Origin: Actinomycetota bacterium
Lineage (GTDB): Bacteria > Actinomycetota > Thermoleophilia > Solirubrobacterales > 70-9
Assembly: GCA_018268695.1 (NCBI GenBank)
Contig: JAFDWD010001127.1
Span: 1 to 13,602 of the forward strand
Direction: 5' to 3'
Length of the DNA: 13,602 bases
Below the pieces are notes generated by a model. It ran no database searches. It was given only the letters and a program-made list of their open reading frames with translations, and was not told where the DNA came from. A program made the position numbers and the translations under genes. Shown here in pieces: positions 1-13,507 of this stretch. Each line of letters begins with the position of its first letter. The first letter of the stretch is position 1.

Positions 1-263
1 CGGTGCCGCGCGGGGCGGCGATCGAAACGACGATCCCGCGGGGCTCGGCCGCGGCCGCCGCGGCGGTCGAGGTGCCAGTCCTCCTCGCCTACGGAGCGAT
101 CGACCTTTCGCCCGACCCGGCGGCCGAGGTGGCCACCTATCCGGCCTCGCCCGACGTGACCCTCTTGAGGCTGGCGAGCTCGGCCCACTGCCACAACCTC
201 TCGGCCGACCGGGAGCTGCTCTGGGGTCGCCTGCTCGGCTGGGCCAGGGAGGTGGCCGCGTGA
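1..263 (+). CDS. Alpha/beta hydrolase, C-terminal fragment (5' end outside window)
   Basis: Only about the last 86 residues are present; the reading frame is open to the left edge, so the start lies upstream. The fragment looks like the end of an alpha/beta hydrolase. A hydrophobic strand VPVLLAYGAID carries an Asp in the place of the catalytic acid, and about 35 residues later SSAHCHNL supplies a His that fits the catalytic histidine. The nucleophile elbow would be upstream and cannot be seen. The stop codon overlaps the GTG start of the next gene by four bases (GTGA), so the two are probably translated together. Substrate unknown: esterase, thioesterase, lactonase or C-C hydrolase are all possible. 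The Ala-rich first 25 residues are less typical. The family call is moderately sure. Confidence 0.6.
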   Translation, partial: VPRGAAIETTIPRGSAAAAAAVEVPVLLAYGAIDLSPDPAAEVATYPASPDVTLLRLASSAHCHNLSADRELLWGRLLGWAREVAA

Positions 264-1919: not shown

Positions 1920-1933
1920 CGGCGGACCCGCCT

Positions 1934-2953
1934 CTACTCCGCGGCGCGCGGCCGCCGCTGCATCTGGGTGATCCCGACCGCCGCGATCAGCACGACCCCC
2001 TGGAATACCTGCGGCGTCCAGTTCGGCGTCCCGGCGAGGAGCAGCCCGACGCTGCCGGTTCCGATCATCAGCACCGCGACGACGGTCCCCCATGGGTTGA
2101 ACCGACCGTGGCGGAACTGCGAGGCGCCGACGAAGGCGGCGGAGAAGGCGGGGATCAGGTACTCGGGACCCACCGAGGGGTCGGCGGAGCCGATCCGCGA
2201 CGCCAGCGCGATCCCGGCGAAGGAGCCGAGCACGCCCGAGAAGAGCAGGGAGATGGTGCGGATGCGGCCGACGCGCAGGCCGACGAGGCGCGAGACCTCG
2301 GGGCCGTAGCCGGAGGCGTAGACGCGCCTGCCGAAGACCGTCTGCTCGAGCACGAATCCGAGCACCAGCATCGCCACCAGCAGGTAGATGACCGGCAGCT
2401 GGACGCCGGCGATGTCAGTGCTGGCGATCTTGGTGAAGGCGCCCGAAACCTTGCCGGTGATGATTTCGTCGCTCGACACCCATAAGGTCGCCGCGGCGAT
2501 GATCGACCCGGTGGCCAGGGTGCCGATGAAGGAGTCGATGTTCATCCTCACCACGACGATCGCGTTCAGGGTGCCGATCGCCAGGCCGGCGACCAGGGTG
2601 AGCGCGACGGCCAGGCCGAGGGGCAGGCCCAAGGTGTTCATCGCCCAGCCGGCGAAGACGCCGGCGAAGCCGATGGTCGAGCCGATCGAGAGGTCGAAGA
2701 CGCCGGCCGCCAACGGCATCACCACGGCGAGCGCCGCGAGACCGGTGATCGCGTACTGGTTGACGACCGACTTGGCCGTCTGCGCGGTCGGGAAGAGGTG
2801 CGGTTTCCAGACCGTGAAGACGACGATCAGGAAGATCCATACGTAGACCGCGCCGATGTTGCGGTAGCTGAGGGCCTCGAGCCGGCGCGGCGCCGGCCGG
2901 CTGCGTTCGGGGGCCTGCGGCGACGGTGCGGCTGCATGTGCGTCGGTAGCCAT
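1934..2953 (-). CDS. ABC transporter permease, CUT2 (ribose/xylose) family
   Basis: Inner-membrane permease of about 339 aa, the normal length for RbsC-like proteins. After a roughly 40-residue Pro/Ala-rich cytosolic tail come many hydrophobic segments. The family landmark FDLSIGS (DLSxGS) lies near residue 100, and the C-terminal segment has the characteristic QVFQGVVLIAAV pattern. I chose the ATG at 2953 because an AAGGAGAG ribosome binding site precedes it. An in-frame ATG at 2989 would add 12 residues but would place this site inside the gene. The protein should pair with the ATPase and binding protein encoded divergently. It is cotranscribed with the downstream SDR. The operator-like palindrome at 3013-3028 sits about 60 bases upstream and probably controls it. 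CUT2 systems usually import monosaccharides but also carry autoinducer-2, purines and polyols, so the cargo is not certain. Confidence 0.92.
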   Translation of the reverse strand: MATDAHAAAPSPQAPERSRPAPRRLEALSYRNIGAVYVWIFLIVVFTVWKPHLFPTAQTAKSVVNQYAITGLAALAVVMPLAAGVFDLSIGSTIGFAGVFAGWAMNTLGLPLGLAVALTLVAGLAIGTLNAIVVVRMNIDSFIGTLATGSIIAAATLWVSSDEIITGKVSGAFTKIASTDIAGVQLPVIYLLVAMLVLGFVLEQTVFGRRVYASGYGPEVSRLVGLRVGRIRTISLLFSGVLGSFAGIALASRIGSADPSVGPEYLIPAFSAAFVGASQFRHGRFNPWGTVVAVLMIGTGSVGLLLAGTPNWTPQVFQGVVLIAAVGITQMQRRPRAAE

Positions 2954-3012: not shown

Positions 3013-3028
3013 CCAAGCGCTTGCTTGG
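3013..3028. promoter_or_regulatory. Palindromic operator, copy 1 (divergent permease/ATPase promoter)
   Basis: A perfect inverted repeat, CCAAGC-GCTT-GCTTGG, lies in the 119-base gap between the divergent permease and ATPase genes. The same arms recur at 4662-4677 and 11404-11419, and copy 2 is its exact reverse complement. A palindrome of this length suits a dimeric TetR-type regulator. The internal CAAGCGCTTG (3014-3023) also resembles LacI-type and KstR2-type (CAAG-N2-CTTG) cores. A possible -10 for the ATPase, TACCCT, lies at 3038-3043, so a bound protein would sit just upstream of or over the promoter and could control both directions. The regulator gene is not in the window. Confidence 0.7.
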
Positions 3029-3057
3029 TTGGCAGCATACCCTACGGGCCACCACTT

Positions 3058-3066
3058 GAGGAGAGG
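3058..3066 (+). promoter_or_regulatory. Ribosome binding site deciding a TTG start
   Basis: GAGGAGAGG, followed by six bases and then TTG at 3073, fixes the ATPase start. The frame is open back to 2980, but the longer version would start in the regulatory gap, read through the operator and add residues without similarity to ABC ATPases. Confidence 0.75.
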
Positions 3067-3072
3067 ATTCGC

Positions 3073-4632
3073 TTGAGCACCGATTCGACGCCGGAGCCCC
3101 TGATCCAGATCGAGCATCTCTCGAAGACGTTCCCGGGGCAGCGTGCGTTGAAGGACGTCAGCTTCGAGATCGGCAAGGCCGAGATCCACGCGCTGGTCGG
3201 CGAGAACGGCTCCGGCAAGTCGACGCTGATCAAGGTCCTCTCCGGCTTCCACGACCCCGACCCTGGCAGCGTCGTGTTGATCGACGGCGAGCCGTTGGAG
3301 GTGAGCTCGGCCGAGGACGCGCGCCGCCGCGGCCTGCGCTTCGTCCACCAGGACCTCGGCCTGATCGGCGAGCTGACCGCGACCGAGAACGTCGGCCTCG
3401 TCTCCGGCTTCGCCACCCAGGGCCCGGGCAAGATCGCCTGGTCCAGGCAGCGCAGGCTGACCCGCGAGCTGCTCGGCCGGATCAACGTCGAGATGGACAT
3501 CGACCGGCCGGTCTCCGAGCTGAGAGCGGTCGAGCGGAGCGCCCTGACGATCGCCCGCGCGCTCGACGACACCCACGGTGCGATCTCGCTGCTGGTCCTC
3601 GACGAGCCCTCGGCGGCCCTCCCCCCGGCCGAGTGCGAGGCGCTCTTCACCGTCTGCCGCGAAGTGCTCGCCAAAGGGGTGAGCATCCTCTACGTCTCCC
3701 ACCGCCTCGACGAGATCCTCAACCTCGCCTCGCGGGTCACGGTGCTGCGCGACGGCGCCTACCAGGGGACCTTCGCCGCCAAGGGGATGGACCGGGCCCG
3801 CCTGGCCGAGCTGATCGTCGGCAGTGCGGTCGAGGAAACCGCGGCGCAGGCGCCCCGCCCGGCTCCCGACGCCGACCCGGTGCTCTCCGTGCGCGGGCTC
3901 CGCGGCGATCCGTTGGCGGGAGTCGACTTCGACGTCTTCCCGGGCGAGGTGCTCGGCATCGCGGGGCTCTCCGGATCCGGCCGCGAGACGTTGGCGGCGG
4001 CGGTCTGCGGCGCCGTCCCGGCGGCGATGGAGCTCACCGTCGCCGGCGAGCGGTGGTCGGGGGACATGAGCCCGCTCGAGGCGGAGCGGCTCGGCCTCGC
4101 CCTCGTCCTCCCCAACCGTCACCCTGACGCGGCGATCAAGGAGTTCTCGATCGGCGAGAACATAACGCTCGGTCGCCTGCCCCAGTTTCAGCGCGGTCTG
4201 CGGGTGAGCAGGCGCAAGGAGCGCGAGGCGGTGATGGAGTGGATCCGGCGGCTCGACGTGCGGCCCGCCGACCCGGACAAGCTCTACGGCCTCCTCAGCG
4301 GCGGCAACCAGCAGAAGGTGCTGCTCGCCAAGTGGTTCGGGATCGACCCGCGGGTCGTCTTCATGGATGACCCGACCAGCGGCGTCGACATCGGCGCCCG
4401 TCACGCGATCTACGACGTCGTCCGCGACTACGCGAAGACCGGCGCCGGGTTCGTCATCTGCTCTTCGGACATGGAGGACTTCGTCGGCGTCTGCGACCGG
4501 GTGGTGGTGCTCGTCGAGGGCGCGGTGACGGAGGAGCTGCACGGCGAGGCGGTGACCGAGCGTGAGCTGCTGCGCGCGATCTCCGCCGCCGGCGAGCGCT
4601 CCGTCCCCGAGGCCTACCAAGCATCTGCTTGA
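3073..4632 (+). CDS. Sugar-type ABC transporter ATPase with two nucleotide-binding domains (RbsA/XylG-like)
   Basis: 519 aa, the usual length for the fused double-domain ATPases of CUT2 importers. Domain 1 (about 10-250) has Walker A GENGSGKST (43-51), a degenerate signature region ending in TIARAL, Walker B LLVLDEP (173-179) and a switch His in VSHRLDE. Domain 2 (about 270-510) has the degenerate Walker A GLSGSGRET (Lys replaced by Arg304) that is common in this family, a full signature LSGGNQQK (408-415) and Walker B VVFMDDP. The usual catalytic Glu of domain 2 is Asp433 here. The protein powers import through the permease encoded divergently at 1934-2953, with the binding protein encoded next downstream. 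It starts at a TTG codon. Its stop codon lies inside a degenerate copy of the operator (4617-4632). Confidence 0.95.
   Translation: MSTDSTPEPLIQIEHLSKTFPGQRALKDVSFEIGKAEIHALVGENGSGKSTLIKVLSGFHDPDPGSVVLIDGEPLEVSSAEDARRRGLRFVHQDLGLIGELTATENVGLVSGFATQGPGKIAWSRQRRLTRELLGRINVEMDIDRPVSELRAVERSALTIARALDDTHGAISLLVLDEPSAALPPAECEALFTVCREVLAKGVSILYVSHRLDEILNLASRVTVLRDGAYQGTFAAKGMDRARLAELIVGSAVEETAAQAPRPAPDADPVLSVRGLRGDPLAGVDFDVFPGEVLGIAGLSGSGRETLAAAVCGAVPAAMELTVAGERWSGDMSPLEAERLGLALVLPNRHPDAAIKEFSIGENITLGRLPQFQRGLRVSRRKEREAVMEWIRRLDVRPADPDKLYGLLSGGNQQKVLLAKWFGIDPRVVFMDDPTSGVDIGARHAIYDVVRDYAKTGAGFVICSSDMEDFVGVCDRVVVLVEGAVTEELHGEAVTERELLRAISAAGERSVPEAYQASA
4617..4632. promoter_or_regulatory. Degenerate operator copy overlapping the ATPase stop codon
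   Basis: CCAAGC-ATCT-GCTTGA matches the operator arms at 11 of 12 positions. It covers the last codons and TGA stop of the ATPase gene, 45 bases before a perfect copy. Its closeness to copy 2 suggests an auxiliary site, but coding constraint makes chance or decay possible. Confidence 0.4.
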
Positions 4633-4661
4633 CAGCGGGGCGATCGTGCACTTAGGCTTGC

Positions 4662-4677
4662 CCAAGCAAGCGCTTGG
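4662..4677. promoter_or_regulatory. Palindromic operator, copy 2 (upstream of the substrate-binding protein)
   Basis: CCAAGC-AAGC-GCTTGG, the exact reverse complement of copy 1, lies in the 89-base gap before the lipoprotein gene. An overlapping half-site arrangement, GCTTG-CC-CAAGC (4656-4667), extends the symmetry to the left. This gives the binding protein its own regulated promoter in addition to any read-through from the ATPase. Confidence 0.7.
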
Positions 4678-4705
4678 TAAAGCGCGTGCGCACAACTGGT
4701 AAAGC
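4675..4705 (+). repeat. Nine-base direct repeat flanking a small palindrome in the leader
   Basis: TGGTAAAGC occurs at 4675-4683 and again at 4697-4705, exactly 22 bases (about two helical turns) apart. The 8-base palindrome GTGCGCAC lies between them at 4686-4693. The first repeat overlaps the end of operator copy 2. It may form part of the promoter or a second protein-binding site, or it may be chance. Confidence 0.4.
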
Positions 4706-4721
4706 TGTGAGAGGAGAGAGC

Positions 4722-5936
4722 ATGAAGCTGCACATTGCTTCCGCACGCGTGATCGCTGCGGTCGTCCTGTGCCTGGTTGCGCTGGTCCTGGTTGTCGCCG
4801 GATGTGGCGGTGGATCGAGCAGCACCAGCAGCAGTGGCGGCAGCACGGAATCGAGCGAAGGTTCCGGCGCGGAAACCACCGGCACCGAAACGGAAGAAGG
4901 CGAAGAATCGTCGACCTCGGAAACCGCTTTCCCGAAAGCCGCCAAAGCGAACGAAGAATTCGAAGAACGGCCGACCTCGGTCGGGATCGAGACGCCGGTC
5001 GGGAAACCGATCCCGAAAGGCAAAACCATCGACTTCATCCAGTGCGGCGTCCCCGCCTGCAAGACCGAGGGTGAAATCTTCGAAGCCGCCGCGAGCGAGC
5101 TCGGCTGGACGATCAAATCGATCAACGCCGGCACCACGCCGGAGGAAATCAAGGCCGCCTACGACCAGGCGATCAAGGATGAACCTGACGCCGTGCTCGG
5201 GTCCGGCTACCCACGTGTCCTGTTCGAACCGGAGATCGCCAAGCTGAAGTCGATGAACATCCCGGTGGTCGAGTTCTTCGTCGAGGAAGAAGCCGGCAAC
5301 GGCATCACCGCGGTCATCGCCGGCATCGGCACGACCGAAATCCAGGGCAAGATGATGGCCGACTTCATCCTCTCCCACAGCACCGACGAATCGATGGAAA
5401 TCGGCTCGGTCAACGCGAAGGGCTTCGAAACCGTCACCGCGACGATCGAAAGCGTCAAGAAGACGGTCGAAGGCGAATGCCCCGGCTGCTCGATCAAGAC
5501 GCTGGAAGCGCCGCTGACTTCGATCGGCAAAGACCTGCCGCAGCGGATCGCCTCGTTCCTCACCGCCAACCCGGGGATCGAATGGACGACCGTGGGCTAC
5601 AACGACATGGTCACCGGCCTGCCCACCGCGCTGAAGGGCGCCGGGGTCGAAGACGCGAAGCTGACGACGGTCAACATCAACAAGTCGATCGCCCCCTACA
5701 TGGCCAACGGCGAATACCTCCAGGCCACGATGGGGACGAGCTTCTACGAGGTGTACTGGCGCGGGATCGATCTCCTCGCCCGTCTCTTCGCCGGAGTCGA
5801 ATACAAAGAAGACGTCGACGACTCGACGCTTCCGTACTGGACGATCACGAAGGAATCGCTGCCGTCCACGGAAGAAGAATTCCCGGTCGTCGAAAACTAC
5901 GAAGAACAGTTCAAACAGCTCTGGGGCACCGAATAG
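4722..5936 (+). CDS. Substrate-binding lipoprotein of a CUT2 ABC transporter (periplasmic-binding-protein type)
   Basis: 404 aa. A Lys/Arg-bearing N-terminus, a hydrophobic stretch (10-26) and the lipobox VAGC put a lipid-modified Cys28 outside the membrane. Residues 29-75 form a Gly/Ser/Thr/Glu-rich linker. The rest resembles the two-lobed sugar-binding family (Peripla_BP_4-like): a first strand KTIDFIQCG, a DQAIKDEPDAVLGSG segment and a hinge near VGYNDMV. Two close cysteine pairs, C108/C113 and C253/C256 (CPGC), could form disulfides. The ATG at 4722 follows a GAGAGGAGAGAG ribosome binding site; earlier in-frame starts would extend the signal peptide for no reason. Codon use differs strongly from its neighbours: by hand count about 41 GAA against 8 GAG for Glu, whereas the ATPase uses almost only GAG. 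Ligand unknown. Confidence 0.93.
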   Translation: MKLHIASARVIAAVVLCLVALVLVVAGCGGGSSSTSSSGGSTESSEGSGAETTGTETEEGEESSTSETAFPKAAKANEEFEERPTSVGIETPVGKPIPKGKTIDFIQCGVPACKTEGEIFEAAASELGWTIKSINAGTTPEEIKAAYDQAIKDEPDAVLGSGYPRVLFEPEIAKLKSMNIPVVEFFVEEEAGNGITAVIAGIGTTEIQGKMMADFILSHSTDESMEIGSVNAKGFETVTATIESVKKTVEGECPGCSIKTLEAPLTSIGKDLPQRIASFLTANPGIEWTTVGYNDMVTGLPTALKGAGVEDAKLTTVNINKSIAPYMANGEYLQATMGTSFYEVYWRGIDLLARLFAGVEYKEDVDDSTLPYWTITKESLPSTEEEFPVVENYEEQFKQLWGTE

Positions 5937-5957
5937 CGGCCCAGACGCATTGAAGTC

Positions 5958-5994
5958 CCGCGGAAGCTCCGGCCTCGTGCCGGAGCTTCCGCGG
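5958..5994 (+). terminator. Strong stem-loop between binding-protein and aldehyde dehydrogenase genes
   Basis: A perfect 16-base stem begins CCGCGGAAGC and ends GCTTCCGCGG around the loop CTCGT, 22 bases after the binding-protein stop. Outer GAAG/CTTC could add pairs past a small bulge. There is no T-run after it, as is common in high-GC actinobacteria. It is likely a terminator or an RNA-stabilising hairpin that keeps the abundant binding-protein message apart from the downstream enzymes. Confidence 0.7.
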
Positions 5995-6022
5995 CTTCGA
6001 CCAGACGTAGACCGGAGGACCG

Positions 6023-7510
6023 ATGACGCTTGCCGGGCTCGACCACGCGGGGGCGCTGTACATCGGCGGCGATTGGGTCTCGCCGCCGGGGAAGACGACC
6101 GAGGACATCGTGAACCCGGCCACCGAGGAGGTCGTCGCCTCCTTGCCGGTCGGCGAGATGGCCGAATGCGACGCGGCCCTGGCGGCCGCCCGCGAGGCCT
6201 TCGAGGAGGGACCGTGGCCGCGGATGGCCGGACCGGAGCGGGCGGCGACGCTGCTGCGGATGCGGGGCGCGCTCGCCGCACGCCGGGACGAGCTGATCGA
6301 CCTGGTGATAGCCGAGACCGGGGCGCCGCGAGGGCTGGCCGCCGGGCTGCACGTCGACACGACCCTCGCCCACTTCCGCTTCTTTGCCGAGGCCGCCGCC
6401 TGGCCCGGCGTCGAGCCGCTGCCCCCCGATCTGACCGACCGCGTCGGCGGCGGCAAGCTGCTCGGGAGCCAGGTGCAGGTGTACGAGCCCTACGGCGTCG
6501 TGGTGGCGATCAGCCCCTTCAACTTCCCGCTCCTGATCAACGTGGCGAAGATCGCCCCGGCGATGGCGATGGGCAACACCGTCGTCCTCAAGCCCTCGCC
6601 GTTCACGCCGCTGCAGGCCTTCGTCCTCGCCGAGGCGGCGGAGGAGGCGGGCGTCCCGGCCGGGGTCCTGAACGTCGTCACCGGCGGGGTCGAGGTCGGC
6701 GAGGCGCTCACCTCCGATCCCCGGGTCGACCTGATCACCTTCACCGGCTCCGACACCGTCGGCGCCGCCGTCGCCCGACAGGCGGCAGGCACGCTGAAGA
6801 AGGTCGTGCTGGAGCTGGGCGGCAAGTCGGCCCTGATCGTGCGCGAGGACGCCGACCTCGAGGCCGCTGCCGCCTTCGCCGTCGGCCAGTACACCCTGCA
6901 GGCCGGCCAGGGCTGCAGCCTCTGCACCCGGCACCTCGTCCACAATTCGGTCCGCGGCCGCTTCCTCGAGCTGATGGAGGAGGGATCGCGGGCCCTGCGG
7001 ATCGGCGACCCGGCGGCCGCGACGACGACGATGGGCCCGTTGATCCGCGAAGCACAACGGGAACGGGTCGAACGGTATGTGGACGAGGCCCGCGACGACG
7101 GCGGCGAGGTCCTCATCGGCGGTCGGCGCCCGGTCGATCTCGACCGCGGGTTCTTCTACGAGCCGACGATCCTGACCGCGCTCGACAACTCCGCCAGGGC
7201 GGCCCAGGAGGAGATCTTCGGCCCGGTCGCGGTGGTGGTCGGGTTCGACTCCGACGCCGAGGCCGTGGCGATCGCCAACGACTCTCCGTTCGGCCTCTCG
7301 GGGGCGGTCTTCTCGCGGGACTCGGGCACCGCCTTCGAGCTCGCGCTGCAGCTGCGGACCGGGCAGGTGGCGCTGAACGGAGGGAGTGGCGCGATGAATT
7401 CGTGGGCACCGTTCGGCGGCTACAAGCGCTCCGGCATCGGCCGCGAGTACGGCGTCGCCGGAGTGCGGGAGTTCTGCCAGACGAAGGCGATCCACTTCAA
7501 CGCCGGCTGA
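6023..7510 (+). CDS. NAD(P)-dependent aldehyde dehydrogenase
   Basis: Full-length aldehyde dehydrogenase of 495 aa; it oxidises an aldehyde to a carboxylic acid in the cytosol. Motifs in order: SPFNFP with the oxyanion Asn, KPSPFTP cofactor loop, FTGSDTVG, LELGGK with general base E264, GQGC with nucleophile C298, EEIFGPV with the cofactor-ribose Glu, and the PFGGYKRSGIGRE tail. The ATG follows a GGAGG ribosome binding site by six bases. It opens a tight plus-strand run of four genes that includes a mycofactocin-type SDR 23 bases downstream, so it may oxidise the aldehyde produced from a primary alcohol. The strong hairpin upstream suggests either its own promoter or reduced read-through from the transporter genes. 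The sequence does not show which aldehyde is used. Confidence 0.95.
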   Translation: MTLAGLDHAGALYIGGDWVSPPGKTTEDIVNPATEEVVASLPVGEMAECDAALAAAREAFEEGPWPRMAGPERAATLLRMRGALAARRDELIDLVIAETGAPRGLAAGLHVDTTLAHFRFFAEAAAWPGVEPLPPDLTDRVGGGKLLGSQVQVYEPYGVVVAISPFNFPLLINVAKIAPAMAMGNTVVLKPSPFTPLQAFVLAEAAEEAGVPAGVLNVVTGGVEVGEALTSDPRVDLITFTGSDTVGAAVARQAAGTLKKVVLELGGKSALIVREDADLEAAAAFAVGQYTLQAGQGCSLCTRHLVHNSVRGRFLELMEEGSRALRIGDPAAATTTMGPLIREAQRERVERYVDEARDDGGEVLIGGRRPVDLDRGFFYEPTILTALDNSARAAQEEIFGPVAVVVGFDSDAEAVAIANDSPFGLSGAVFSRDSGTAFELALQLRTGQVALNGGSGAMNSWAPFGGYKRSGIGREYGVAGVREFCQTKAIHFNAG

Positions 7511-7533
7511 CAACAGGAGAGGGAAGGGTTCAG

Positions 7534-8367
7534 ATGAGCAAGCTGGAGGGAAAGGTGGCGTTCGTCACCGGCGCGGCCCGCGGGCAGGGTCGGTCCCACG
7601 CCGAGCGACTGGCCGCCGACGGGGCCGACATCGTCGCCGTCGACGTCTGCGCCGACATCGAGACGGTGCCCTATCCGATGGGCACCGCGGAGGAGCTCGC
7701 CGAGACGAAGGAGCGGGTCGAGGGGGCCGGCCGTCGCTGCGTCACCGCGACCGCCGACATCCGCAGCCTCGAGCAGTTGGGCGCCGCGGTGGACGCCGCC
7801 AAGGAGACCTTCGGGAAGATCGACATCCTCGTCGCCAACGCCGGCATCTGGTCCCAGTCGACCGAGTCCTGGACGCTCGACGAGGACACCTGGCAGACGA
7901 TGATCGACATCAACCTGACCGGCCAGTGGAAGACGGCCAGGGCGGTGGTGCCGACGATGATCGAGGGCGGCGCCGGCGGCGCGATCACGATCACCAGCTC
8001 CTCGATCGGGCTCAAAGCCACCACCGGGAACGTCCACTACACGACCGCCAAGCACGGGGTGATCGGGCTGGTGCGGACGCTCGCCCACGAGCTCGCCCCC
8101 CATGACATCCGGGTTAACGCCCTTTGTCCGACGACCGTCAGGTCGCCGATGATCACCAACGAGGCCCTCTACGGCCTGTTCCGACCCGACCTCGAGTCCC
8201 CGGGGCTCGCCGACGTGGAACCGGGACTGGCCGATCTGAACCTGCTCGACGTCAGCATGATGGAGCCGGGCGAGGTCAGCGCCGCGATCAGCTGGCTGGT
8301 CTCCGACGACGCCCGTTACGTCACCGGCGTCGCGCTGCCGATCGACGCCGGCTCGACCGCCAAGTAG
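7534..8367 (+). CDS. Mycofactocin-coupled SDR family oxidoreductase
   Basis: 277 aa. The N-terminus is the hallmark of the mycofactocin-coupled SDR group (carveol dehydrogenase-like): KLEGKVAFVTGAARGQGRSH, then ADIVAVDVCADIETVPYPM with the group's insert after the second strand. The nucleotide turn is TGAARGQG (12-19). The active site has a TSSS serine region, Y169 and K173 (YTTAK), and the C-terminus ends in VTGVALPIDAGS. In the known family, NAD is bound tightly and the electrons are passed to the peptide-derived redox carrier mycofactocin instead of exchanging NAD, so this enzyme is expected to oxidise an alcohol to a ketone or aldehyde. The ATG follows a GGAGAGGGAAGGG ribosome binding region. 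Mycofactocin biosynthesis genes are not in the window and must lie elsewhere. The substrate could be cyclic or terpenoid, by analogy only. Confidence 0.92.
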   Translation: MSKLEGKVAFVTGAARGQGRSHAERLAADGADIVAVDVCADIETVPYPMGTAEELAETKERVEGAGRRCVTATADIRSLEQLGAAVDAAKETFGKIDILVANAGIWSQSTESWTLDEDTWQTMIDINLTGQWKTARAVVPTMIEGGAGGAITITSSSIGLKATTGNVHYTTAKHGVIGLVRTLAHELAPHDIRVNALCPTTVRSPMITNEALYGLFRPDLESPGLADVEPGLADLNLLDVSMMEPGEVSAAISWLVSDDARYVTGVALPIDAGSTAK

Positions 8368-8373
8368 GCCGCG

Positions 8374-9171
8374 ATGGACCTCGAACTGAAGGGTCGACTG
8401 GCGCTCGTCACCGGGGCGACCAAGGGGATCGGGCACGCGGTCGCGGGCGCGCTCCTCGACGAGGGGGCGGCGGTGTTCGTCCACGGGCGCAGCGAGGAGA
8501 CCGTGGAGGACGCGGTCGCGCGGCTGCGGGGGCGCGGTGAGGTGCACGGGGTGGTCGGCGATCTCGCCGACCCGGCGGGGCCGGCGGCGATCGCCAGGCG
8601 GGTCGCGGCGGTCGGTCGGCCCGACGTGCTGGTCAACAACGCCGCCGTGTACGAGGTCAAGCCCTACCTCGATCTCGACCCGGACGACTGGCGTCGCAGC
8701 CTCCAGGTCAACCTGCTGAGTGGTGCCGCGCTGGCGCAGGCGTTCCTCCCCCCGATGCTGGAGCGCGACTGGGGGCGGATCGTCTTCGTCTCCTCCGACT
8801 ACGGCGTCCAGGTCAACCCGGACCTGATGCCCTACTCGGTCGCGAAGGCGGCGATGATCGCCCTCGGCCGCGGCCTGGCGGTGATGACGAGGGGGACCGG
8901 GGTCACCGTGAACACGACGATCGCCGGGCCGACCTGGACCGAGGGCTCGGCCGGGTTCCTCGACGGCGCCAACCCCGAGGGCAGGCCGGTGGAGGAGGTC
9001 AAAGCCGAGTTCTTCGAGCCGGGCGGGTTCCTCGCCGACACCCTGACCGGTCGCTTCGCCGATCCCGCCGAGGTGGCCGCGATGGTGGCGTTCCTCTGTT
9101 CGGGCCGCGCCTCCGCGGTCACCGGGGCGGCGCAGCGGGCCGACGGGGGCACGATCAAAGCGGCGCACTGA
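8374..9171 (+). CDS. Short-chain dehydrogenase/reductase (SDR), probably NADP-preferring
   Basis: 265 aa classical SDR. TGATKGIG is the cofactor turn, and the Lys there plus an Arg after the second strand (HGRSEE) suggest NADP(H). It has NNAA in place of NNAG, a VSSDYG serine 13 residues before Y154, and K158 (YSVAK). The C-terminal region has an inserted loop rich in Gly, Pro and Glu before FLADTLTGRFADP and ends in DGGTIKAAH. This tail resembles 3-oxoacyl-ACP reductase-like proteins of catabolic clusters more than FabG itself. The ATG lies six bases after the mycofactocin SDR stop with only a weak ribosome binding site, which suggests translational coupling. The one-base overlap with the next gene (TGATG) continues the operon. 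The role is probably reduction or oxidation of a pathway ketone/alcohol. Confidence 0.9.
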   Translation: MDLELKGRLALVTGATKGIGHAVAGALLDEGAAVFVHGRSEETVEDAVARLRGRGEVHGVVGDLADPAGPAAIARRVAAVGRPDVLVNNAAVYEVKPYLDLDPDDWRRSLQVNLLSGAALAQAFLPPMLERDWGRIVFVSSDYGVQVNPDLMPYSVAKAAMIALGRGLAVMTRGTGVTVNTTIAGPTWTEGSAGFLDGANPEGRPVEEVKAEFFEPGGFLADTLTGRFADPAEVAAMVAFLCSGRASAVTGAAQRADGGTIKAAH

Positions 9172-9599
9172 TGGAGGAGCTCGCGGTTCTCCTCGGCGCC
9201 TACGCTGCGGCGGTCGACGCCCGTGACCTCGACGCCCTGCGCGGCCTCTTCCTCGCCGACGCGACCCTGACGGTGAGGCGGGGCAAGGCGGAGCCGCAGG
9301 TGTTCCGCGGCCGCGCCGAGTTGAGCGGCGTGATCGAGGCCCTGGCCCCGTTCGAGCTGACCCTGCACGAGGTGTCCTCGGCGGAGTTCGCGGTCGACCC
9401 GGAGGGAGCGGAGGTAAGCGGGCGGAGCGTCTGCGTCGCCCATCACATACGGCGGGGCGAGGGGCGGGAGGGCTCCGACCTGGTGCTCCACGGCCGCTAC
9501 TCGGACCGCTTCCGGCGCGACGCCGACGGTGCCTGGCGCTTCGCCGCCCGCGAGCTGCGGGTGCTCTGGACCGAGAAGCGCGCCGTCCGACCGACCTAG
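9171..9599 (+). CDS. SnoaL-like / NTF2-fold protein
   Basis: 142 aa, the usual size of a single cone-shaped NTF2-like domain. The pattern fits: an N-terminal helix pair (LLGAYAAAVDARDLDALRGLFLADATL), a GRAEL element, then alternating beta strands ending in DGAWRFAARELRVLW. This fold includes SnoaL cyclases, scytalone dehydratase, ketosteroid isomerase and limonene-epoxide hydrolase. I see no residue set that decides between them, so dehydratase, isomerase or hydrolase roles are all open. The start codon overlaps the stop of the preceding SDR by one base, so it is translated as part of that operon. Its own stop codon shares a CTAG with the stop of the convergent luciferase-like gene. Association with SDRs suggests it handles the same hydroxylated or keto intermediate. 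Confidence 0.8.
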   Translation: MEELAVLLGAYAAAVDARDLDALRGLFLADATLTVRRGKAEPQVFRGRAELSGVIEALAPFELTLHEVSSAEFAVDPEGAEVSGRSVCVAHHIRRGEGREGSDLVLHGRYSDRFRRDADGAWRFAARELRVLWTEKRAVRPT

Positions 9600-10516
9600 G
9601 CGGTCGCGGCGCGGAAGGCCGCGGCGAGACCGGCGACGAACTCGGGCGCCCGGTCGGGATCCGGGCAGAGGTGCGACAGCGGCGCGTAGAAGTCGGTCGC
9701 GCCGAGGGCGCGGGCCTCGGCGAGGCGGTCCATGCTGCGCTCGACCGCGCCGTCGCCCTCCTTCGGCGGCGGCACGCCGATCCGGACGCGGACCTGGCCC
9801 GGGTCCCGGCCGGCCTCGGCCAGTGCCGCGTCGAGCGTCTCGATCCCGGCGGCGATGTCGCGGCGGCGGGCGGTCGGGCTCGGGATCCAGCCGTTGCAGC
9901 GGCGGACGATCCGAGCCAAGTTCCGCTGGTGCAGCTCGCCGCCGATCCAGAGCGGCACGCCGCCGTCCTGCACCGGGCGCGGCTCGCAGTAGACGTCCTC
10001 GAACCGCAGCCGTGGCGAGTCGAAGGCGGTCGGGCCGCCTTCCCAGAGGGCGCCGCAGGCGTCGAGCGCGTCGTCGAGGAGTCGGCCCCGCCGGGAGAAG
10101 TCGAGTCCGGCGGCCTCGTACTCCTTCGCCAGCCAGCCGGTGCCGACGCCAAGGTCGAGCCGGCCGCCGGAGACCACGTCGAGCGTCGCCGCCGTCTTCG
10201 CCAGAAGCGCGGGCGGGCGCAGCGGGGCGATCAGGACGCCGGTCATCAGCCGCACCCGCTCGGTGCGCCCGGCGATCGCCGCGAGGCAGGTCAGGGGCTC
10301 GAGCCAGGGTGCGGCGGGCGCGGTCGCGAAGGGGCCGTAGGGGTAGCCGGAGAGATCGCCGCCGAGCACCACGTGGTCGACCACGACGATCGTGTCGACG
10401 CCGGCCTCGTCGGCGGCCTGGCCGAGCTCCAGCAGCCGCGCCCAGTCGCCGCGCAGGTAGGAGCCGTAGTTGTCGAGGCCGACGTGGAGGCGGGGCGGCA
10501 GCGCGGCGCGGCTCAC
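9596..10516 (-). CDS. Luciferase-like (LLM class) flavin/F420-dependent oxidoreductase
   Basis: 306 aa TIM-barrel protein of the luciferase-like family. The VVDHV element (47-49 DHV) and the GRLDLGVGTGW stretch (119-128) are typical of the actinobacterial F420-dependent branch. AATLDVVSGG and a VPLWIGGE strand agree with the family. F420-dependent members move a hydride to or from ketones, alcohols or enoyl groups, while FMN-dependent relatives are monooxygenases, including type II Baeyer-Villiger enzymes. The sequence alone leaves this choice open, although I favour F420. The GTG start overlaps the stop of the SMP-30-like gene by four bases (GTGA), so the two proteins are probably made together and may act on consecutive intermediates. 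The gene converges on the SnoaL-like gene, with the stop codons overlapping. Confidence 0.88.
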   Translation of the reverse strand: MSRAALPPRLHVGLDNYGSYLRGDWARLLELGQAADEAGVDTIVVVDHVVLGGDLSGYPYGPFATAPAAPWLEPLTCLAAIAGRTERVRLMTGVLIAPLRPPALLAKTAATLDVVSGGRLDLGVGTGWLAKEYEAAGLDFSRRGRLLDDALDACGALWEGGPTAFDSPRLRFEDVYCEPRPVQDGGVPLWIGGELHQRNLARIVRRCNGWIPSPTARRRDIAAGIETLDAALAEAGRDPGQVRVRIGVPPPKEGDGAVERSMDRLAEARALGATDFYAPLSHLCPDPDRAPEFVAGLAAAFRAATA

Positions 10517-11361
10517 GGGGCGGGGACCGGCGCCTCGTCCACGAGTCGGTGGATCGACCCGGCCCGGTTGGCGACCGCCTCCTCGGGGACCCAGCTCGGC
10601 GCCGTGGCGACGAAGAGCTCGCGGCCGCCGGGACCGCCGAGCGCCACCGCGTAGGGGCTCGGGAACGACAGCCGGCGGTCGATCGCGCCGTCGGCGGTGA
10701 CCCGGACCAGCTCGTCGCCGAAGGGGAAGGCGACCCAGACGCCGCCCTCCGCGTCGATCGCGATCCCGTCGGGGAAGCCGCCCTCGAACTCGGCCAGGGT
10801 CCGGCGGCCCGAGAGCGAGCCGTCCGCGCCGATCGCGAACGCCGTCAGCCTGCCGGGGACCGCCCGCGTCTCGGCGACGACGAGCGTGGCGCCGTCGGGG
10901 GTGATCGCGATCCCGTTGGGGAACCAGAGATCTTCGGCGACGACCCGTGCCTCGCCGTCCGGCTCGACCAGGAGGAGAACGGTCGGCCTGGGGGGGTCGG
11001 GCGGGGCGGAACCGTCGCCGAAGTTGCCGACGTAGGCGCGGCCGCGGCGATCGACGTACATGTCGTTCGTGTGCCAGGGCGCCAGGGTCGAGAGGTCGGC
11101 GTGCTCGGTGGGTCCGTCCTCACCCAGCCGCAACAGCCGCCGGTCGTGCATCGAGACGACGAGCGGGGTGCCGTCGGGGAGGAAGCCGAGCCCCGAGGGA
11201 CACTCCGGCACCTCGGCGACGACTTCGGGCTCCGCACCCGGGACGAGACGCTGCACAGTGTGCGCGTGCATGTCCGAGAACCACAGCGCGCCGTCGTGCC
11301 AGCGCACTCCCTCGGGGAAGGTGAGGCCCTCGACAAGCGTCTCTGAGGCGGTCGTCTCCAT
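10513..11361 (-). CDS. SMP-30/gluconolactonase-like hydrolase
   Basis: 282 aa six-bladed beta-propeller of the SMP-30/gluconolactonase/LRE family. The divalent-metal ligands are in place: E17 (FPEG), N149 (FPNGIA) and D198 (FPDGIAID). N99 in TNDM matches the substrate-side Asn known in the family. No signal peptide is visible, so it should act in the cytosol. The family hydrolyses lactones such as gluconolactone, with some members acting on organophosphates or other esters. The ATG follows a strong GGAGGAG ribosome binding site. The gene heads an operon with the luciferase-like gene. Its upstream region is shared divergently with the MaoC gene and contains operator copy 3, so it probably belongs to the same regulon as the transporter. 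A sugar-lactone or cyclic-ester intermediate would fit, but the substrate is not shown. Confidence 0.9.
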   Translation of the reverse strand: METTASETLVEGLTFPEGVRWHDGALWFSDMHAHTVQRLVPGAEPEVVAEVPECPSGLGFLPDGTPLVVSMHDRRLLRLGEDGPTEHADLSTLAPWHTNDMYVDRRGRAYVGNFGDGSAPPDPPRPTVLLLVEPDGEARVVAEDLWFPNGIAITPDGATLVVAETRAVPGRLTAFAIGADGSLSGRRTLAEFEGGFPDGIAIDAEGGVWVAFPFGDELVRVTADGAIDRRLSFPSPYAVALGGPGGRELFVATAPSWVPEEAVANRAGSIHRLVDEAPVPAP

Positions 11362-11392
11362 CGTCTCCTCCAGTTTGACCTCGGTCGTGGCG

Positions 11393-11403
11393 TAGGATAT
11401 AAA
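11393..11403 (+). promoter_or_regulatory. Probable -10 region of the MaoC-type gene
   Basis: TAGGATATAAA is a rare AT-rich run in this GC-rich DNA, directly before operator copy 3. TAGGAT (11393-11398) fits TANNNT and TATAAA (11398-11403) is an alternative. Either would start transcription within the operator, close to the GTG at 11424, giving a very short leader. The reverse strand (TTTATATCCTA) could serve the divergent SMP-30-like gene. Confidence 0.45.
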
Positions 11404-11419
11404 CCAAGCGAGCGCTTGG
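11404..11419. promoter_or_regulatory. Palindromic operator, copy 3 (divergent SMP-30/MaoC promoter)
   Basis: CCAAGC-GAGC-GCTTGG, extended by a matching A and T to 18 bases, lies between the divergent SMP-30-like and MaoC-type genes. It is immediately downstream of the likely -10 and only four bases before the GTG start. A bound dimer would cover the transcription start, a classic repressor position. The arms are identical to copies 1 and 2, while the four central bases differ. Confidence 0.72.
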
Positions 11420-11423
11420 TCAA

Positions 11424-12248
11424 GTGACGGACACGATCGACACCCTCAAACCCGCCGCCGAGGCCGCCGGACTGGAGCTCGGCACGCGCCGCGTGGCCTA
11501 TGCCGACCGCGACGCGATCCTCTACGCGCTGGCCGTCGGCGCCGCCGCCGAGGACCTCGATCTGGTCTTCGAGCGGGACCTCCGGGTGCTACCTACCTAC
11601 GGTCTCGGGCTCGGCCTCCCGGCCTGTGACGAGCTCGGCGGCCGCGGCTTCTTCTCCTCGACCAACTCACTGCACGCGGGCCAGCGGCTCGAGGTGCTCG
11701 GGCCGCTGCCGGCATCCGGGGAGCTGGAGCTGGCCGCCCGCGTCGTCGACGTCTGGGACAAGGGCTCCGCCGCCCTCTTCGACATCGAGGTCGCCTGCGA
11801 GTACTTTCGCGCCATCTACTCGATCTTCGCCCCGGGGCAGGGCGGTTGGGGCGGTGAGCGAGGCACCTCCGCCCGCCGCGAACCGGAGTCCGCGCCGACC
11901 CGCGGGGCGAGGCTGGGGACGAGCCGCGAGAGTGCGGTCCTCTACCGCCTGCTCGGCGACCGCCACCTGATCCACGTCGATCCCGAGGCCGCGCACGCGA
12001 TCGGCCAAACGCGCCCGATCCTGCACGGGCTCTGCACGCTCGGCATCGCCGCTCGCGCAATCCCCGGCCTGCTCGGCCGCCGGCCGGACGAGCTCCGGGC
12101 CCTCGAGGCCCGCTTCGCCGCCGCCGTCCTCCCCGGTGACCCACTCGAGCTGCGCGTCTGGGAGCCGCTCGACGACGGCAGCGTGCCCTTTTCCGTGGCG
12201 ACCCCGGAAGCCGTCGCCCTGAGCGGCGGCCTGATGCGTTTCGGCTAG
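11424..12248 (+). CDS. MaoC-type (R)-specific enoyl-CoA hydratase, double hot-dog
   Basis: 274 aa with two hot-dog halves. The N-terminal half has YALAVGA, then the DLDLVFERDLRVLPTYGLGL pattern of hydratase-2 proteins. The C-terminal half holds the catalytic segment YRLLGDRHLIHVD (D179, H181, H184) followed by RPILHGLCTLG. The usual hydratase motif is GDxNPxH; here Asn is His181 and Pro is Leu182, while the catalytic Asp and last His are kept. It should hydrate a 2-enoyl-CoA to a 3-hydroxyacyl-CoA. The GTG start has no convincing ribosome binding site and is only four bases after operator copy 3, so a leaderless or nearly leaderless message is likely. The thiolase gene follows after 44 bases and would complete a beta-oxidation-like sequence. 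The acyl chain is unknown. Confidence 0.88.
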   Translation: MTDTIDTLKPAAEAAGLELGTRRVAYADRDAILYALAVGAAAEDLDLVFERDLRVLPTYGLGLGLPACDELGGRGFFSSTNSLHAGQRLEVLGPLPASGELELAARVVDVWDKGSAALFDIEVACEYFRAIYSIFAPGQGGWGGERGTSARREPESAPTRGARLGTSRESAVLYRLLGDRHLIHVDPEAAHAIGQTRPILHGLCTLGIAARAIPGLLGRRPDELRALEARFAAAVLPGDPLELRVWEPLDDGSVPFSVATPEAVALSGGLMRFG

Positions 12249-12280
12249 ATGGCGTGGCGCCGTCGCCACCAATGTCAACG

Positions 12281-12286
12281 AAGGAG
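12281..12286 (+). promoter_or_regulatory. Ribosome binding site deciding the thiolase start
   Basis: AAGGAG, six bases before GTG at 12293. It supports that start over the in-frame ATG at 12272, which has no purine-rich site before it and would place this AAGGAG inside the coding region. Confidence 0.7.
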
Positions 12287-12292
12287 ATCCCC

Positions 12293-13507
12293 GTGTCTGA
12301 GGAAGCCGTAATCGTCGCCGCCGCCCGCACCCCGATCGGGAGGGCCGGAAAGGGGTCGCTGGTGTCGATGCGCGGGGACGACCTCGCGACGATCGCGGTC
12401 GAGGCCGCGCTCGCCCAGGTGCCCGAGGTGAAGCCCGACGACGTCGAGGACCTGATGATGGGATGCGGCCAGCCGGCGGCCGAGCAGGGCTTCAACATGG
12501 GCCGCGTGGTGGCGGTGATGGCGGGCCTCCCCGAGGTCCCCGGGGTCACCGTGAACCGCTACTGCTCCTCCTCCTTGCAGACGATCCGCATGGCCACGCA
12601 CGCGATCCGCTCGGGCGAGGGCGAGTGCTTCATCGCCGCCGGTGCCGAGTCCTGCAGCCACTTCGACAAGGGCAACGCCGACCGCGTCCCCGACACCAAG
12701 AACCCGCGTTTCGCCGCGGCGATGGAGCGGAGCGCGGAGCGGGCGCAGGCCGGGGCACCCCCGTGGGAGCCGGCCGCGGGCCTGCCCGACGTCTACATCG
12801 CGATGGGCTACACGGCGGAGAACGTGGCCGATCTCGAGGGCATCACCCGCGAGGAGATGGACGCCTTCGCGGCGCGCTCCCAGCAGCTCGCCGTGGCGCG
12901 CCAGGAGGAAGGTTTCTTCGACGCCGAGATCACCCCGGTGACGCTGTCCGACGGGACCGTCGTCGACCGTGACGACGGTCCGCGCCCCGGCACCACCGCG
13001 GAGAAGCTGGCGGGCCTGAAGCCGGTCTTCCGCGAGGACGGGCGGATCACCGCGGGCAACGCCTGCCCGCTGAACGACGGCGGCGCCGCGGTGGTCGTCA
13101 CCAGCGCGAGCTTCGCCCGCGAGCGTGGGATCGAGCCGCTCGCCCGCATCGTCGCCACCGGCGTCGGCGCGGTCGACCCGGAGGTCATGGGCCTCGGCCC
13201 GGTGCCCGCCTCGAGGGCTGCGCTCCGCTGGGCGGGGATGACGATCGACGACGTCGACCTGGTCGAGATCAACGAGGCCTTCGCCGCCCAGGTGATCCCC
13301 AGCGCCCGCCGCCTCGACATCCCCCTCGACAAACTGAACGTGAACGGCGGCGCGATCGCCCTCGGCCACCCCTTCGGGATGACCGGAGCCCGCATCCTGA
13401 TCACCCTCCTGAACGGCCTCCGCGCCCGTGACGCGACGATCGGCCTGGAGACGATGTGCGTCGGCGGTGGCCAGGGGATGGCGCTGATCGTGGAGCGGTT
13501 GAAGTAG
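12293..13507 (+). CDS. Thiolase (acetyl-CoA acyltransferase)
   Basis: 404 aa, the standard thiolase length. The first strand VIVAAARTPIG is typical. VNRYCSSSLQTI carries the nucleophile C91 (the usual motif is C-x-S-G-L; here S-S-L). NEAFAAQ is conserved. GGAIALGHPFGMTGAR gives H359, and CVGGGQGMALI gives the second active-site Cys, C389. It should cleave a 3-oxoacyl-CoA with CoA to acetyl-CoA (or propionyl-CoA) and a shortened acyl-CoA; biosynthetic condensation is possible but less likely in this degradative setting. It follows the MaoC-type hydratase in the operon controlled by operator copy 3. A dedicated 3-hydroxyacyl-CoA dehydrogenase is not seen nearby, so one of the SDRs may fill that step. 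The chain-length preference cannot be read from the sequence. Confidence 0.95.
   Translation: MSEEAVIVAAARTPIGRAGKGSLVSMRGDDLATIAVEAALAQVPEVKPDDVEDLMMGCGQPAAEQGFNMGRVVAVMAGLPEVPGVTVNRYCSSSLQTIRMATHAIRSGEGECFIAAGAESCSHFDKGNADRVPDTKNPRFAAAMERSAERAQAGAPPWEPAAGLPDVYIAMGYTAENVADLEGITREEMDAFAARSQQLAVARQEEGFFDAEITPVTLSDGTVVDRDDGPRPGTTAEKLAGLKPVFREDGRITAGNACPLNDGGAAVVVTSASFARERGIEPLARIVATGVGAVDPEVMGLGPVPASRAALRWAGMTIDDVDLVEINEAFAAQVIPSARRLDIPLDKLNVNGGAIALGHPFGMTGARILITLLNGLRARDATIGLETMCVGGGQGMALIVERLK

Follow-up and report, generated by a model that had tools for sequence, protein, structure and literature searches.

A KstR2-type operator probably places a ribose-type ABC importer in a HIP-degradation regulon of Thermoleophilia

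The window, by which we mean the whole 13,602-nucleotide stretch that was analysed, carries an ABC importer and a set of enzyme genes, with short palindromes at their promoters (Table 1). The importer combines a Peripla_BP_4 binding protein, a BPD_transp_2 permease and a double ABC ATPase, the composition of a CUT2 system. What does it carry? A single-sequence search of the binding protein against PDB gave no match at E 0.001, with a profile search reaching only down to 0.013, and a fold search returned generic sugar-binding folds at 8-20% identity, which give no clue to the substrate. Among the enzymes, the SMP-30 protein matched SMP-30/gluconolactonase proteins and designed propellers in PDB.

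Table 1. Genes and sites of the window (positions are those of the window; a dot marks features without strand)
Feature	Position	Strand	Remarks
3-hydroxyisobutyrate-dehydrogenase-like protein, NAD-binding	260..1060	+	start closely similar to that of a G001 cluster protein (97407-98207)
SDR	1104..1934	-	downstream of permease, likely same operon
ABC importer permease	1934..2953	-	BPD_transp_2, ribose/CUT2 type
Operator 1	3013..3028	.	CCAAGCGCTTGCTTGG (CCAAGC-GCTT-GCTTGG), perfect; permease/ATPase divergent gap, 59 bp from permease start and 44 bp from ATPase start
ABC importer ATPase	3073..4632	+	two ABC domains; TTG start chosen by reading
Operator 2b	4617..4632	.	CCAAGCATCTGCTTGA, one mismatch; overlaps ATPase stop codon
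Operator 2	4662..4677	.	CCAAGCAAGCGCTTGG (CCAAGC-AAGC-GCTTGG), perfect; 44 bp before binding-protein ATG
Substrate-binding protein	4722..5936	+	lipoprotein-like, Peripla_BP_4, pentose-binding-protein fold
Aldehyde dehydrogenase	6023..7510	+	without own operator; possibly read through from binding-protein operon
Mycofactocin-coupled SDR oxidoreductase	7534..8367	+	TIGR03971
SDR oxidoreductase	8374..9171	+	
SnoaL-like protein	9171..9599	+	
F420-dependent LLM-class oxidoreductase	9596..10516	-	TIGR03619
SMP-30/gluconolactonase-like protein	10513..11361	-	behind operator 3
Promoter-like hexamers for SMP-30	11394..11423	-	TTGACC, 18 nt, TATCCT; consensus match only
Operator 3	11404..11419	.	CCAAGCGAGCGCTTGG (CCAAGC-GAGC-GCTTGG), perfect; SMP-30 (42 bp) / MaoC (4 bp) gap
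MaoC/MFE-2-type hydratase	11424..12248	+	behind operator 3
Thiolase	12272..13507	+	start uncertain (12254 or 12272)

The original prediction had described the palindrome CCAAGC-N4-GCTTGG in three perfect copies, all of them intergenic and the first two exact reverse complements of each other, with CAAGCGCTTG present in copies 1 and 2 and absent from copy 3; all of this was re-found. It had also tied three promoters into a single regulon, of which the sharing stands and the size does not: the regulon is larger, and the window itself holds a fourth site, operator 2b, 45 bp start to start before operator 2 as its tandem partner. Operator 3 occupies the spacer of the promoter-like element of the SMP-30 gene and extends into its first hexamer, a position that would suit repression by occlusion. 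Perfect sites arose at a mean of 0.002 per run in 2,000 order-2 Markov simulations of the window, four runs having one such site and none more. With up to three mismatches allowed, the window holds 8 sites against a simulated mean of 7.4, which is chance level, and the signal is thus confined to sites with at most one mismatch.

The same arrangement recurs in relatives. Five of the 399 genomes in a class sample (Thermoleophilia) encode the TetR protein discussed below: G001, G234, G271, G284 and G398. G001 is the Solirubrobacterales MAG RYN_247 (4.0 Mb), the closest named relative, and G234 appears to be the cultured Conexibacter woesei. A genome scan for the motif, proposed at the outset and run in these relatives, placed all five perfect copies of G001 within one 26-kb stretch around orthologous genes, including a perfect counterpart of operator 1 at C146:95011; a control pattern had 4 matches in this genome. 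Counting sites with zero or one mismatch, the cluster of G001 holds eleven and those of the other four relatives five to ten, tandem pairs among them (93355/93400 in G001, 45 bp apart and both with one mismatch; 46619/46666 in G284, 47 bp apart). Conservation of the sites, on which the original prediction had staked itself, was found, at zero or one mismatch, at the SMP-30/MaoC gap in 5/5 genomes and before the importer genes in all five; in G398 a site precedes an apparent operon in which the importer genes come after an acyl-CoA ligase, and one of the two genes for a binding protein lacks a preceding site.

The window was pooled with most of the stretches taken from the five genomes (347,284 bp). 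Perfect sites number 15 in this DNA, where none of 59 permuted-arm controls exceeds 1; with one mismatch allowed the count is 43, where no control exceeds 9. Forty of the 43 are intergenic, though intergenic DNA makes up 53,149 of the 347,284 bp by gene-caller estimate. This count leaves out two stretches, L038 (G271 C204) and L039 (G234 around 3434559), which carry both perfect sites lying outside the clusters of the positive genomes (2/14), one of these within a gene. The N4 centre is constrained as well: with those two outlying sites set apart, of the 15 perfect sites that the window and the clusters of its relatives contain, 13 have a centre of the form [AG][AC][GT][CT], as do 3 of 61 perfect matches from genomes other than the five positive ones, among the matches listed. 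The consensus becomes ACCAAGC-RMKY-GCTTGGT. The bare 12-base pattern was rejected as a genome-wide marker, a perfect copy occurring in 80/399 class genomes, mostly singly.

Which protein reads these sites? The window holds no regulator gene; the TetR is known here from the relatives, and the window's own host presumably encodes the same protein. A dimeric repressor of either TetR or LacI type had been predicted, with the advice to look for such a gene carrying its own copy, and the G001 cluster contains a TetR gene (domains TetR_N and TetR_C_24) with a perfect site 14 bp before its ATG, which points to a TetR-type regulator and leaves no need to invoke a LacI one. A site with at most one mismatch precedes this gene in 4/5 genomes; in G234, where none stands directly before it, the gene (C1:2485286-2485915, + strand) follows a MaoC-thiolase pair whose promoter has a site and with which it is probably co-transcribed. 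The G001 protein is identical to KstR2 at 92/187 positions (49%) and at 24/27 residues across the DNA-binding helices. Against solved chains it matches 2ibd at E 5e-63 and KstR2 (4w97/4w1u) at 1.8e-58, with the next chain at 4.6e-23, and several of its relatives are named 'cholesterol catabolism regulator' by JGI. Judged on these alignments, it would be an ortholog of KstR2.

The resemblance of the motif to KstR2 sites, raised in the original prediction, proved a correct lead: six of the seven sites listed in the published KstR2 material lie within one mismatch of the palindrome, and none of 19,999 shuffles fitted this match. Operator 2 with its flank contains the complete published KstR2 14-mer AnCAAGnnCTTGnT, which operator 1 matches except at a single outer base. 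The core CAAGnnCTTG is found inside 23/41 cluster sites (41 of the 43, omitting 39673 in G001 and 49044 in G284_C88, which have no gene start nearby). Copy 3 had been set apart for lacking CAAG-N2-CTTG; we reject this as an objection to its being KstR2-like, because a listed KstR2 site of Rhodococcus jostii (RHA1), CCAAGCGATTGCTTGG, lacks this core too.

HIP is what remains of steroid rings C and D, a fragment of two rings. Close IpdA proteins (71-100% identity) occur in the same 5/399 class genomes as the TetR, and all five, each with sites, are among the 8/399 that encode a homologue of the window's binding protein. The other three (G375, G295 and G279) have this homologue at 36-40% identity, as distant as in G234 and G398, and gave neither a perfect site nor a TetR match; in a 'family' sample of 50 genomes the binding protein was found only in G001. 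Beyond these samples, some long contigs, among them ones of 877,698 and 863,739 bases, appear to encode the binding protein together with the TetR. The CoA-transferase-like subunits of G234 match 6co6 at 4e-102 and 4e-80, against only 7e-24 and 4e-10 for glutaconate CoA-transferase. We take 6co6 and 6con, whose PDB names say CoA-transferase subunit, to be IpdAB, as the position of Gly57 supports. IpdB of RHA1 is described as having Gly57 where type I CoA transferases have the catalytic Glu (Crowe et al. 2017, PMC5380842, in part), and the IpdB-like beta subunits of 5/5 genomes have Gly at this place, read DG (G234 aligned to 6co6_B).

A site with at most one mismatch stands before ipdA in 4/5 genomes (G001, G234, G398 and G284), with none in G271, and by their position KstR2-type sites are predicted to control HIP genes, ipdAB included, in these relatives. 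As far as the relevant portion of Crowe et al. (PMC5380842) sets out the HIP pathway (IpdA/B/C/F, EchA20, FadA6, FadD3 and FadE30-32), the relatives share with it, besides the IpdA- and IpdB-like proteins and their conserved Gly, NMO-family (IpdC-like), SDR, enoyl-CoA hydratase, thiolase, acyl-CoA dehydrogenase-like and CoA ligase genes alongside. IpdA and IpdB were the two matched to solved chains; the proteins assigned as IpdC, IpdF, EchA20, FadA6 and FadD3 are candidates by family and context, the best solved matches of the EchA20-like protein being named just enoyl-CoA hydratase. Among the 14 window proteins scanned there was no CoA-transferase, NMO or enoyl-CoA hydratase (ECH) match for HIP ring opening, and the window spans only the importer/SMP-30/MaoC part of the proposed regulon. 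Elsewhere in the class sample, G130 has a distant IpdA-like match (42%).

The palindrome is very probably the operator of a KstR2-type TetR, within a Thermoleophilia KstR2 regulon for HIP that extends to a CUT2 ABC importer. The repressor, encoded outside the window, would bind the consensus given above, and its regulon would take in HIP degradation, the importer, the SMP-30 lactonase-like/LLM pair and the MaoC hydratase/thiolase pair. With no fragment present it would cover the promoters; after uptake of a fragment and its coupling to CoA it would let go, and importer and enzymes would be made together. The likely effector would be HIP-CoA; a CoA ester as inducer, one of the options of the original prediction, is in line with publications on KstR2. 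Because the palindrome resembles a KstR2-type operator, the substrate of the neighbouring "sugar-type" importer may well be a steroid fragment, putatively HIP or a close relative, rather than a sugar. The importer would thus differ from known CUT2 (ribose/AI-2 type) importers in being putatively regulated with steroid-fragment catabolism instead of a sugar pathway, and its binding protein has at most 20% identity to the listed solved binding proteins.

Within what the source gives on the KstR2 regulon of Mycobacterium and Rhodococcus, for which three motifs are listed (Kendall et al. 2010, PMC3068626), the two systems share the KstR2 sequence group of TetR regulators, one and the same palindromic operator, divergent promoters and clustered ipdAB-like and other beta-oxidation-type genes. 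They differ in host, here Thermoleophilia, in the five to eleven sites with at most one mismatch per genome's clusters against those three listed motifs, and in the addition here of CUT2 ABC importer, SMP-30, LLM, MaoC and thiolase genes.

Is the fragment derived from a steroid at all? A further difference from the KstR2 regulon is that no protein of the five genomes passed the cut-off of the models for KshA, HsaC and KstD, as would be expected if the regulon were of KstR2 type and its substrate some other alicyclic acid with one or two rings, such as one derived from terpenoids, passed into Ipd-like ring opening. The aldehyde dehydrogenase, mycofactocin-type SDR and F420 LLM genes lie outside the KstR2 regulon in the description available and suggest alcohol or ketone oxidation before CoA activation. 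However, the IpdAB-like proteins fall together with 6co6/6con and retain the IpdB Gly, and the HIP regulon has this same regulator and operator; we consider a non-steroid substrate unlikely, if deserving of real weight.

Conversely, the hosts might degrade whole steroids by an upper pathway that the models missed, with the importer taking bile acids or whole steroids. Three models were run, with no positive control for HsaC and KstD; the assemblies of G001, G271, G284 and G398 are each split over several contigs, and a flavoprotein of G271 reached 425 of the 789 bits of the KstD cut-off, the best KstD score. Yet the KshA model (PF19298), which found none in the five, has matches in 14/198 phylum genomes, with E below 1e-87 in five of these. 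The HsaC model (TIGR03213) gave 0/5 above cut-off, at best 67 of 366 bits. Of the 24 proteins in these genomes with an FAD_binding_2 match of at least 88 bits, none passed a KstD cut-off of NCBIfam. G234, whose contig appears to be the complete C. woesei genome, yielded no protein above the cut-off of any of the three models, its closest TIGR03213 match being a catechol 2,3-dioxygenase and its best KstD-like protein much nearer another flavoprotein. Degradation of whole steroids seems improbable.

Might the KstR2-like gene be a coincidental neighbour, the sites being bound by another TetR of similar specificity? In G234 and G398 a further TetR of this family, less closely related at 40-42% identity, is encoded near a one-mismatch site, so that two regulators may share the motif, and eleven genomes without a TetR match have at least two perfect copies (five in G225, four in G343, three each in G175 and G325, two in each of seven). 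The near-identity of the DNA-binding helices to those of KstR2, the operator as published and the presence of the TetR in exactly the genomes with a close IpdA make this very doubtful. Chance palindromes, for which the mostly single perfect copies across the class could speak, are rejected on the simulation, the permuted-arm controls and the centre bias, and clustering and conserved position in relatives argue so strongly against them that their probability is negligible.

Returning to a KstR2 regulon for HIP, we tentatively propose, at somewhat below an even chance, that some Thermoleophilia, C. woesei included, carry the lower half of steroid degradation only and scavenge HIP or its lactone, leaked by other microbes, through the KstR2-controlled ribose-type importer. 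The SMP-30 protein, a candidate HIP-lactone hydrolase, would open the lactone, and the MaoC hydratase, a candidate enoyl-CoA hydratase of HIP side-chain removal, would act on the side chain with the thiolase, a candidate for the same process; for R. jostii the side-chain hydratase is given as unknown. If so, such scavengers would be missed by surveys keyed on KshA and HsaC. The KstR2-type reading itself brings a regulon known from mycolic-acid actinobacteria to a class that branches deeply, and suggests a substrate class for a group of binding proteins to which one source gives the name 'ribose transport system'. It also provides a specific model of how microbes might cross-feed on steroid fragments, testable in a cultured strain, C. 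woesei. A parallel by description is CamABCD, an ABC transporter that with CamM transports cholate metabolites in R. jostii RHA1, according to the part of PMC8399759 that treats them, the proposed likeness being the uptake of partly degraded steroids by an ABC transporter. The profile of the window's binding protein found one weak match (E 1e-7) among the 14 genomes with a KshA_C match.

The three perfect copies of the palindrome CCAAGC-N4-GCTTGG claimed for the window by the original prediction lie where it had placed them, each intergenic by sequence and gene reading (see table), and a fourth, with one mismatch, accompanies copy 2. In 2,000 order-2 simulations perfect copies averaged 0.002 per window and never exceeded one; at up to three mismatches the window's eight sites are uninformative, a dinucleotide-shuffle control averaging 7.4. 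Operator 3 (copy 3) sits between promoter-like hexamers for SMP-30 and 4 bp ahead of the MaoC start.

Which regulator might read these sites? A resemblance to the operator of KstR2 had been suggested, and it is borne out by the published sites. The KstR2 motif is given as AnCAAGnnCTTGnT, with listed sites, and in gel shifts KstR2 bound probes of all three M. tuberculosis sites (Kendall et al. 2010, PMC3068626). Six of the seven distinct sites taken from that paper depart from the palindrome at no more than one position, the remaining one departs at two, and 0 of 19,999 shuffled-site controls reach the one-mismatch level. Copy 3 does lack the CAAG-N2-CTTG core, as had been remarked, and so does one RHA1 site from the same source that is yet a perfect palindrome match.

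At E 0.001 or better, 191 database proteins score as relatives of the importer's substrate-binding protein; the named organisms among the best 120 of these 191 are Solirubrobacterales MAGs. A reference-genome scan, with two Streptomyces matches (25-28% identity) set aside, gave a single close relative (L001, 79% identity) in Solirubrobacterales MAG RYN_247 (G001, 4.0 Mb). The original prediction had proposed a genome-wide motif scan and a search for a TetR/LacI gene carrying its own copy, and in this relative both gave the expected result: the genome's five perfect copies are confined to positions 77,684 to 103,864 of a single 109,745-base contig, and one of them directly precedes a TetR gene. 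Because a reversed control pattern also matches four times in this genome, it is the clustering and not the copy number that counts as evidence.

Positions of palindromes and neighbouring features
Sequence	Position	Type	Context
Window	3013-3028	perfect (copy 1)	intergenic
Window	4617-4632	one mismatch	overlaps ATPase stop codon; copy 2 starts 45 bp further on
Window	4662-4677	perfect (copy 2)	intergenic
Window	11404-11419	perfect (copy 3)	intergenic
Window	4800-4930	linker	behind binding-protein lipobox
Window	5950-6002	hairpin	between binding-protein and aldehyde dehydrogenase genes
Window	7534-8367	mycofactocin-coupled SDR	within likely regulon
G001	39673	one mismatch	outside cluster; twelfth site at 0-1 mismatch
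G001	58345	one mismatch	ipdA
G001	59881	one mismatch	amidohydrolase/acyl-CoA-dehydrogenase-like pair
G001:C146	70494-75084	second importer-like set (L009)	close to aminotransferase and TetR sites
G001	76430	one mismatch	aminotransferase
G001	77684-77699	perfect	before TetR gene, ATG read at 77669 (simple gene caller: 77594), 14 bp between
G001	82079	perfect	before acyl-CoA ligase
G001:C146	83731-84419	small gene pair	between acyl-CoA ligase and thiolase genes
G001	86532	perfect	between MaoC and SMP-30
G001	93355, 93400	one mismatch, tandem pair	before binding protein
G001	95011	perfect	between ATPase and permease
G001	99195	one mismatch	hydrolase/ligase pair
G001	103849	perfect	between acyl-CoA dehydrogenase-like gene and ligase
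G234:C1	2494372-2494989	second TetR	adjoins one-mismatch site
G398:C42	206968-207570	second TetR	adjoins one-mismatch site

The TetR protein of this relative contains TetR_N and TetR_C_24 domains and exceeds the cut-off of none of the NCBIfam models. Among solved structures it is closest to 2ibd (E 5e-63, 101/191 identical) and to KstR2 itself (4w97/4w1u; E 1.8e-58, 92/187 identical), the next following at 4.6e-23; in the DNA-binding helices 24 of 27 residues agree with KstR2, and several close relatives carry the JGI name 'cholesterol catabolism regulator'. At least 10 contigs above 10 kb, matched by size alone, are apparently common to the best 120 of 191 binding-protein and the best 120 of 7,367 TetR matches, an overlap suggesting frequent linkage of the two genes on one contig. 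G234, which we take to be the cultured Conexibacter woesei, and G398 each encode a further TetR from this family, more distant at 40-42% identity and possibly a paralogue sharing or splitting the regulon.

In an even sample of 399 genomes of the class, the TetR occurs at E 1e-30 in five (G001, G234, G271, G284 and G398), and exactly these five also have a close IpdA (71-100% identity), the sole distant match (42%) being in G130. The binding protein, at E 1e-60, is found in these five and in three others (G279, G295 and G375, 36-40% identity); no perfect palindrome was present in those three or in seven genomes lacking the binding protein. Perfect copies occur in 80 of the 399 genomes, and in eleven TetR-less genomes there are at least two (five in G225, four in G343, three each in G175 and G325, two in the other seven); G225 and G343 have no TetR, IpdA or binding-protein match. 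Genome-wide in the five TetR-positive relatives, 12 of 14 perfect copies fall in the clusters.

Random spread, inside genes included, and a lack of conservation in relatives had been named as outcomes that would speak against a regulon; in the five relatives the sites are mostly clustered and several keep their positions. Over 347,284 bp, made up of the window plus most of the stretches fetched from the five genomes, there are 15 perfect sites and 43 at 0-1 mismatch, against at most 1 and at most 9 for any of 59 permuted-arm palindromes; the stretches were chosen for holding the genes, so this compares the motif with other motifs in the same DNA and does not test the region. Forty of the 43 sites are intergenic, in DNA that a simple gene caller divides into 294,135 bp genic and 53,149 bp intergenic. 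A further two fetched stretches, left out of this count, contribute a single non-cluster perfect site apiece, of which one is intragenic. An arm spacing of 4 is enriched; so is 0, with 19 one-mismatch sites, through overlap with the KstR2 register. With two sites that have no gene start near dropped, the remaining 41 give the consensus ACCAAGC-RMKY-GCTTGGT, and 23 of them contain CAAGnnCTTG; the N4 centre fits this consensus in 13 of 15 copies in clusters versus 3 of 61 outside the five genomes, among the matches listed and with G225, G325 and G343 not included.

Both in the window and in every one of the five relatives, the SMP-30/MaoC divergent gap holds a site at 0-1 mismatch, which in G271 and G284 falls inside an over-long MaoC open frame, ahead of the likely MaoC ATG. 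Each of the five also has importer genes downstream of a site, those of G398 further along in what appears to be a ligase operon. Ahead of the binding protein, tandem sites recur with a spacing of 45 bp (G001) or 47 bp (G284), and direct sites are found at TetR in four of five relatives and at ipdA likewise in four of five.

The CoA-transferase-like subunits of G234 match 6co6, which we take to be IpdAB, at 4e-102 and 4e-80, followed by glutaconate CoA-transferase at 7e-24 and 4e-10; PDB names of 6co6-type entries say just CoA-transferase subunits. The label is supported by residue 57, described as Gly in place of the catalytic Glu in IpdB of RHA1 (Crowe et al. 2017, PMC5380842), which is Gly in 6co6_B and, at the aligned place, in the beta subunit from each of the five genomes. 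Gene order in G001 is that of G234: ipdA, ipdB, an NMO-family gene, SDR and thiolase.

For the upper steroid pathway, KshA_C was found in none of the five TetR-positive genomes, against 14 of 198 phylum genomes, five at E below 1e-87. TIGR03213, which we expect to catch HsaC, gave nothing above cut-off in the five (best 67 of 366 bits, run without an HsaC positive control), its best match in G234, a single contig of 6,359,369 bp, being catechol 2,3-dioxygenase. Likewise, none of 24 FAD_binding_2 matches of at least 88 bits in the five genomes passed a KstD cut-off, the nearest being a G271 protein at 425 of 789 bits (without a KstD positive control). Conexibacter, Thermoleophilia and Solirubrobacter all go unmentioned in the main texts of two steroid surveys (PMC4810484, PMC5790920), and among the matches listed from open-licence literature KstR2, ipdAB or HIP steroid terms never appear together with these names.

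The original interpretation of a shared operator and regulon is supported and sharpened: judged from sequence, the palindromes are probably KstR2-type operators, in the relatives within ipd-containing clusters, and the mechanism beyond this point is one we infer. One KstR2-type dimer, or several that overlap, would occupy the promoters until a ligand, by analogy HIP-CoA, freed the repressor from DNA. The importer would bring in HIP, the two-ring fragment from steroid rings C/D, or its lactone, which SMP-30 would open; a ligase would attach CoA, dehydrogenases, MaoC, SDR and thiolase would shorten the side chain, and the Ipd enzymes would open the rings. A regulon of this kind is already known; its ecological reading here is testable and fairly surprising.

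A mycofactocin-coupled SDR (TIGR03971, 379 bits against a cut-off of 300) within the likely regulon, together with a nearby F420-type LLM, hints at an alcohol or ketone step. In the same G001 cluster, what looks by eye like another importer set, with binding protein, ATPase and permease, accompanies SDR genes, and a small gene pair looks toxin-antitoxin-like, again by eye. The window's long, near-perfect hairpin (-40.9 kcal/mol, RNAfold) lacks a T run; it may stabilise the transcript of the binding-protein gene or act as a partial terminator for it. The low-complexity Ser/Gly/Thr/Glu linker of the binding protein is also present in the consensus of 20 relatives.
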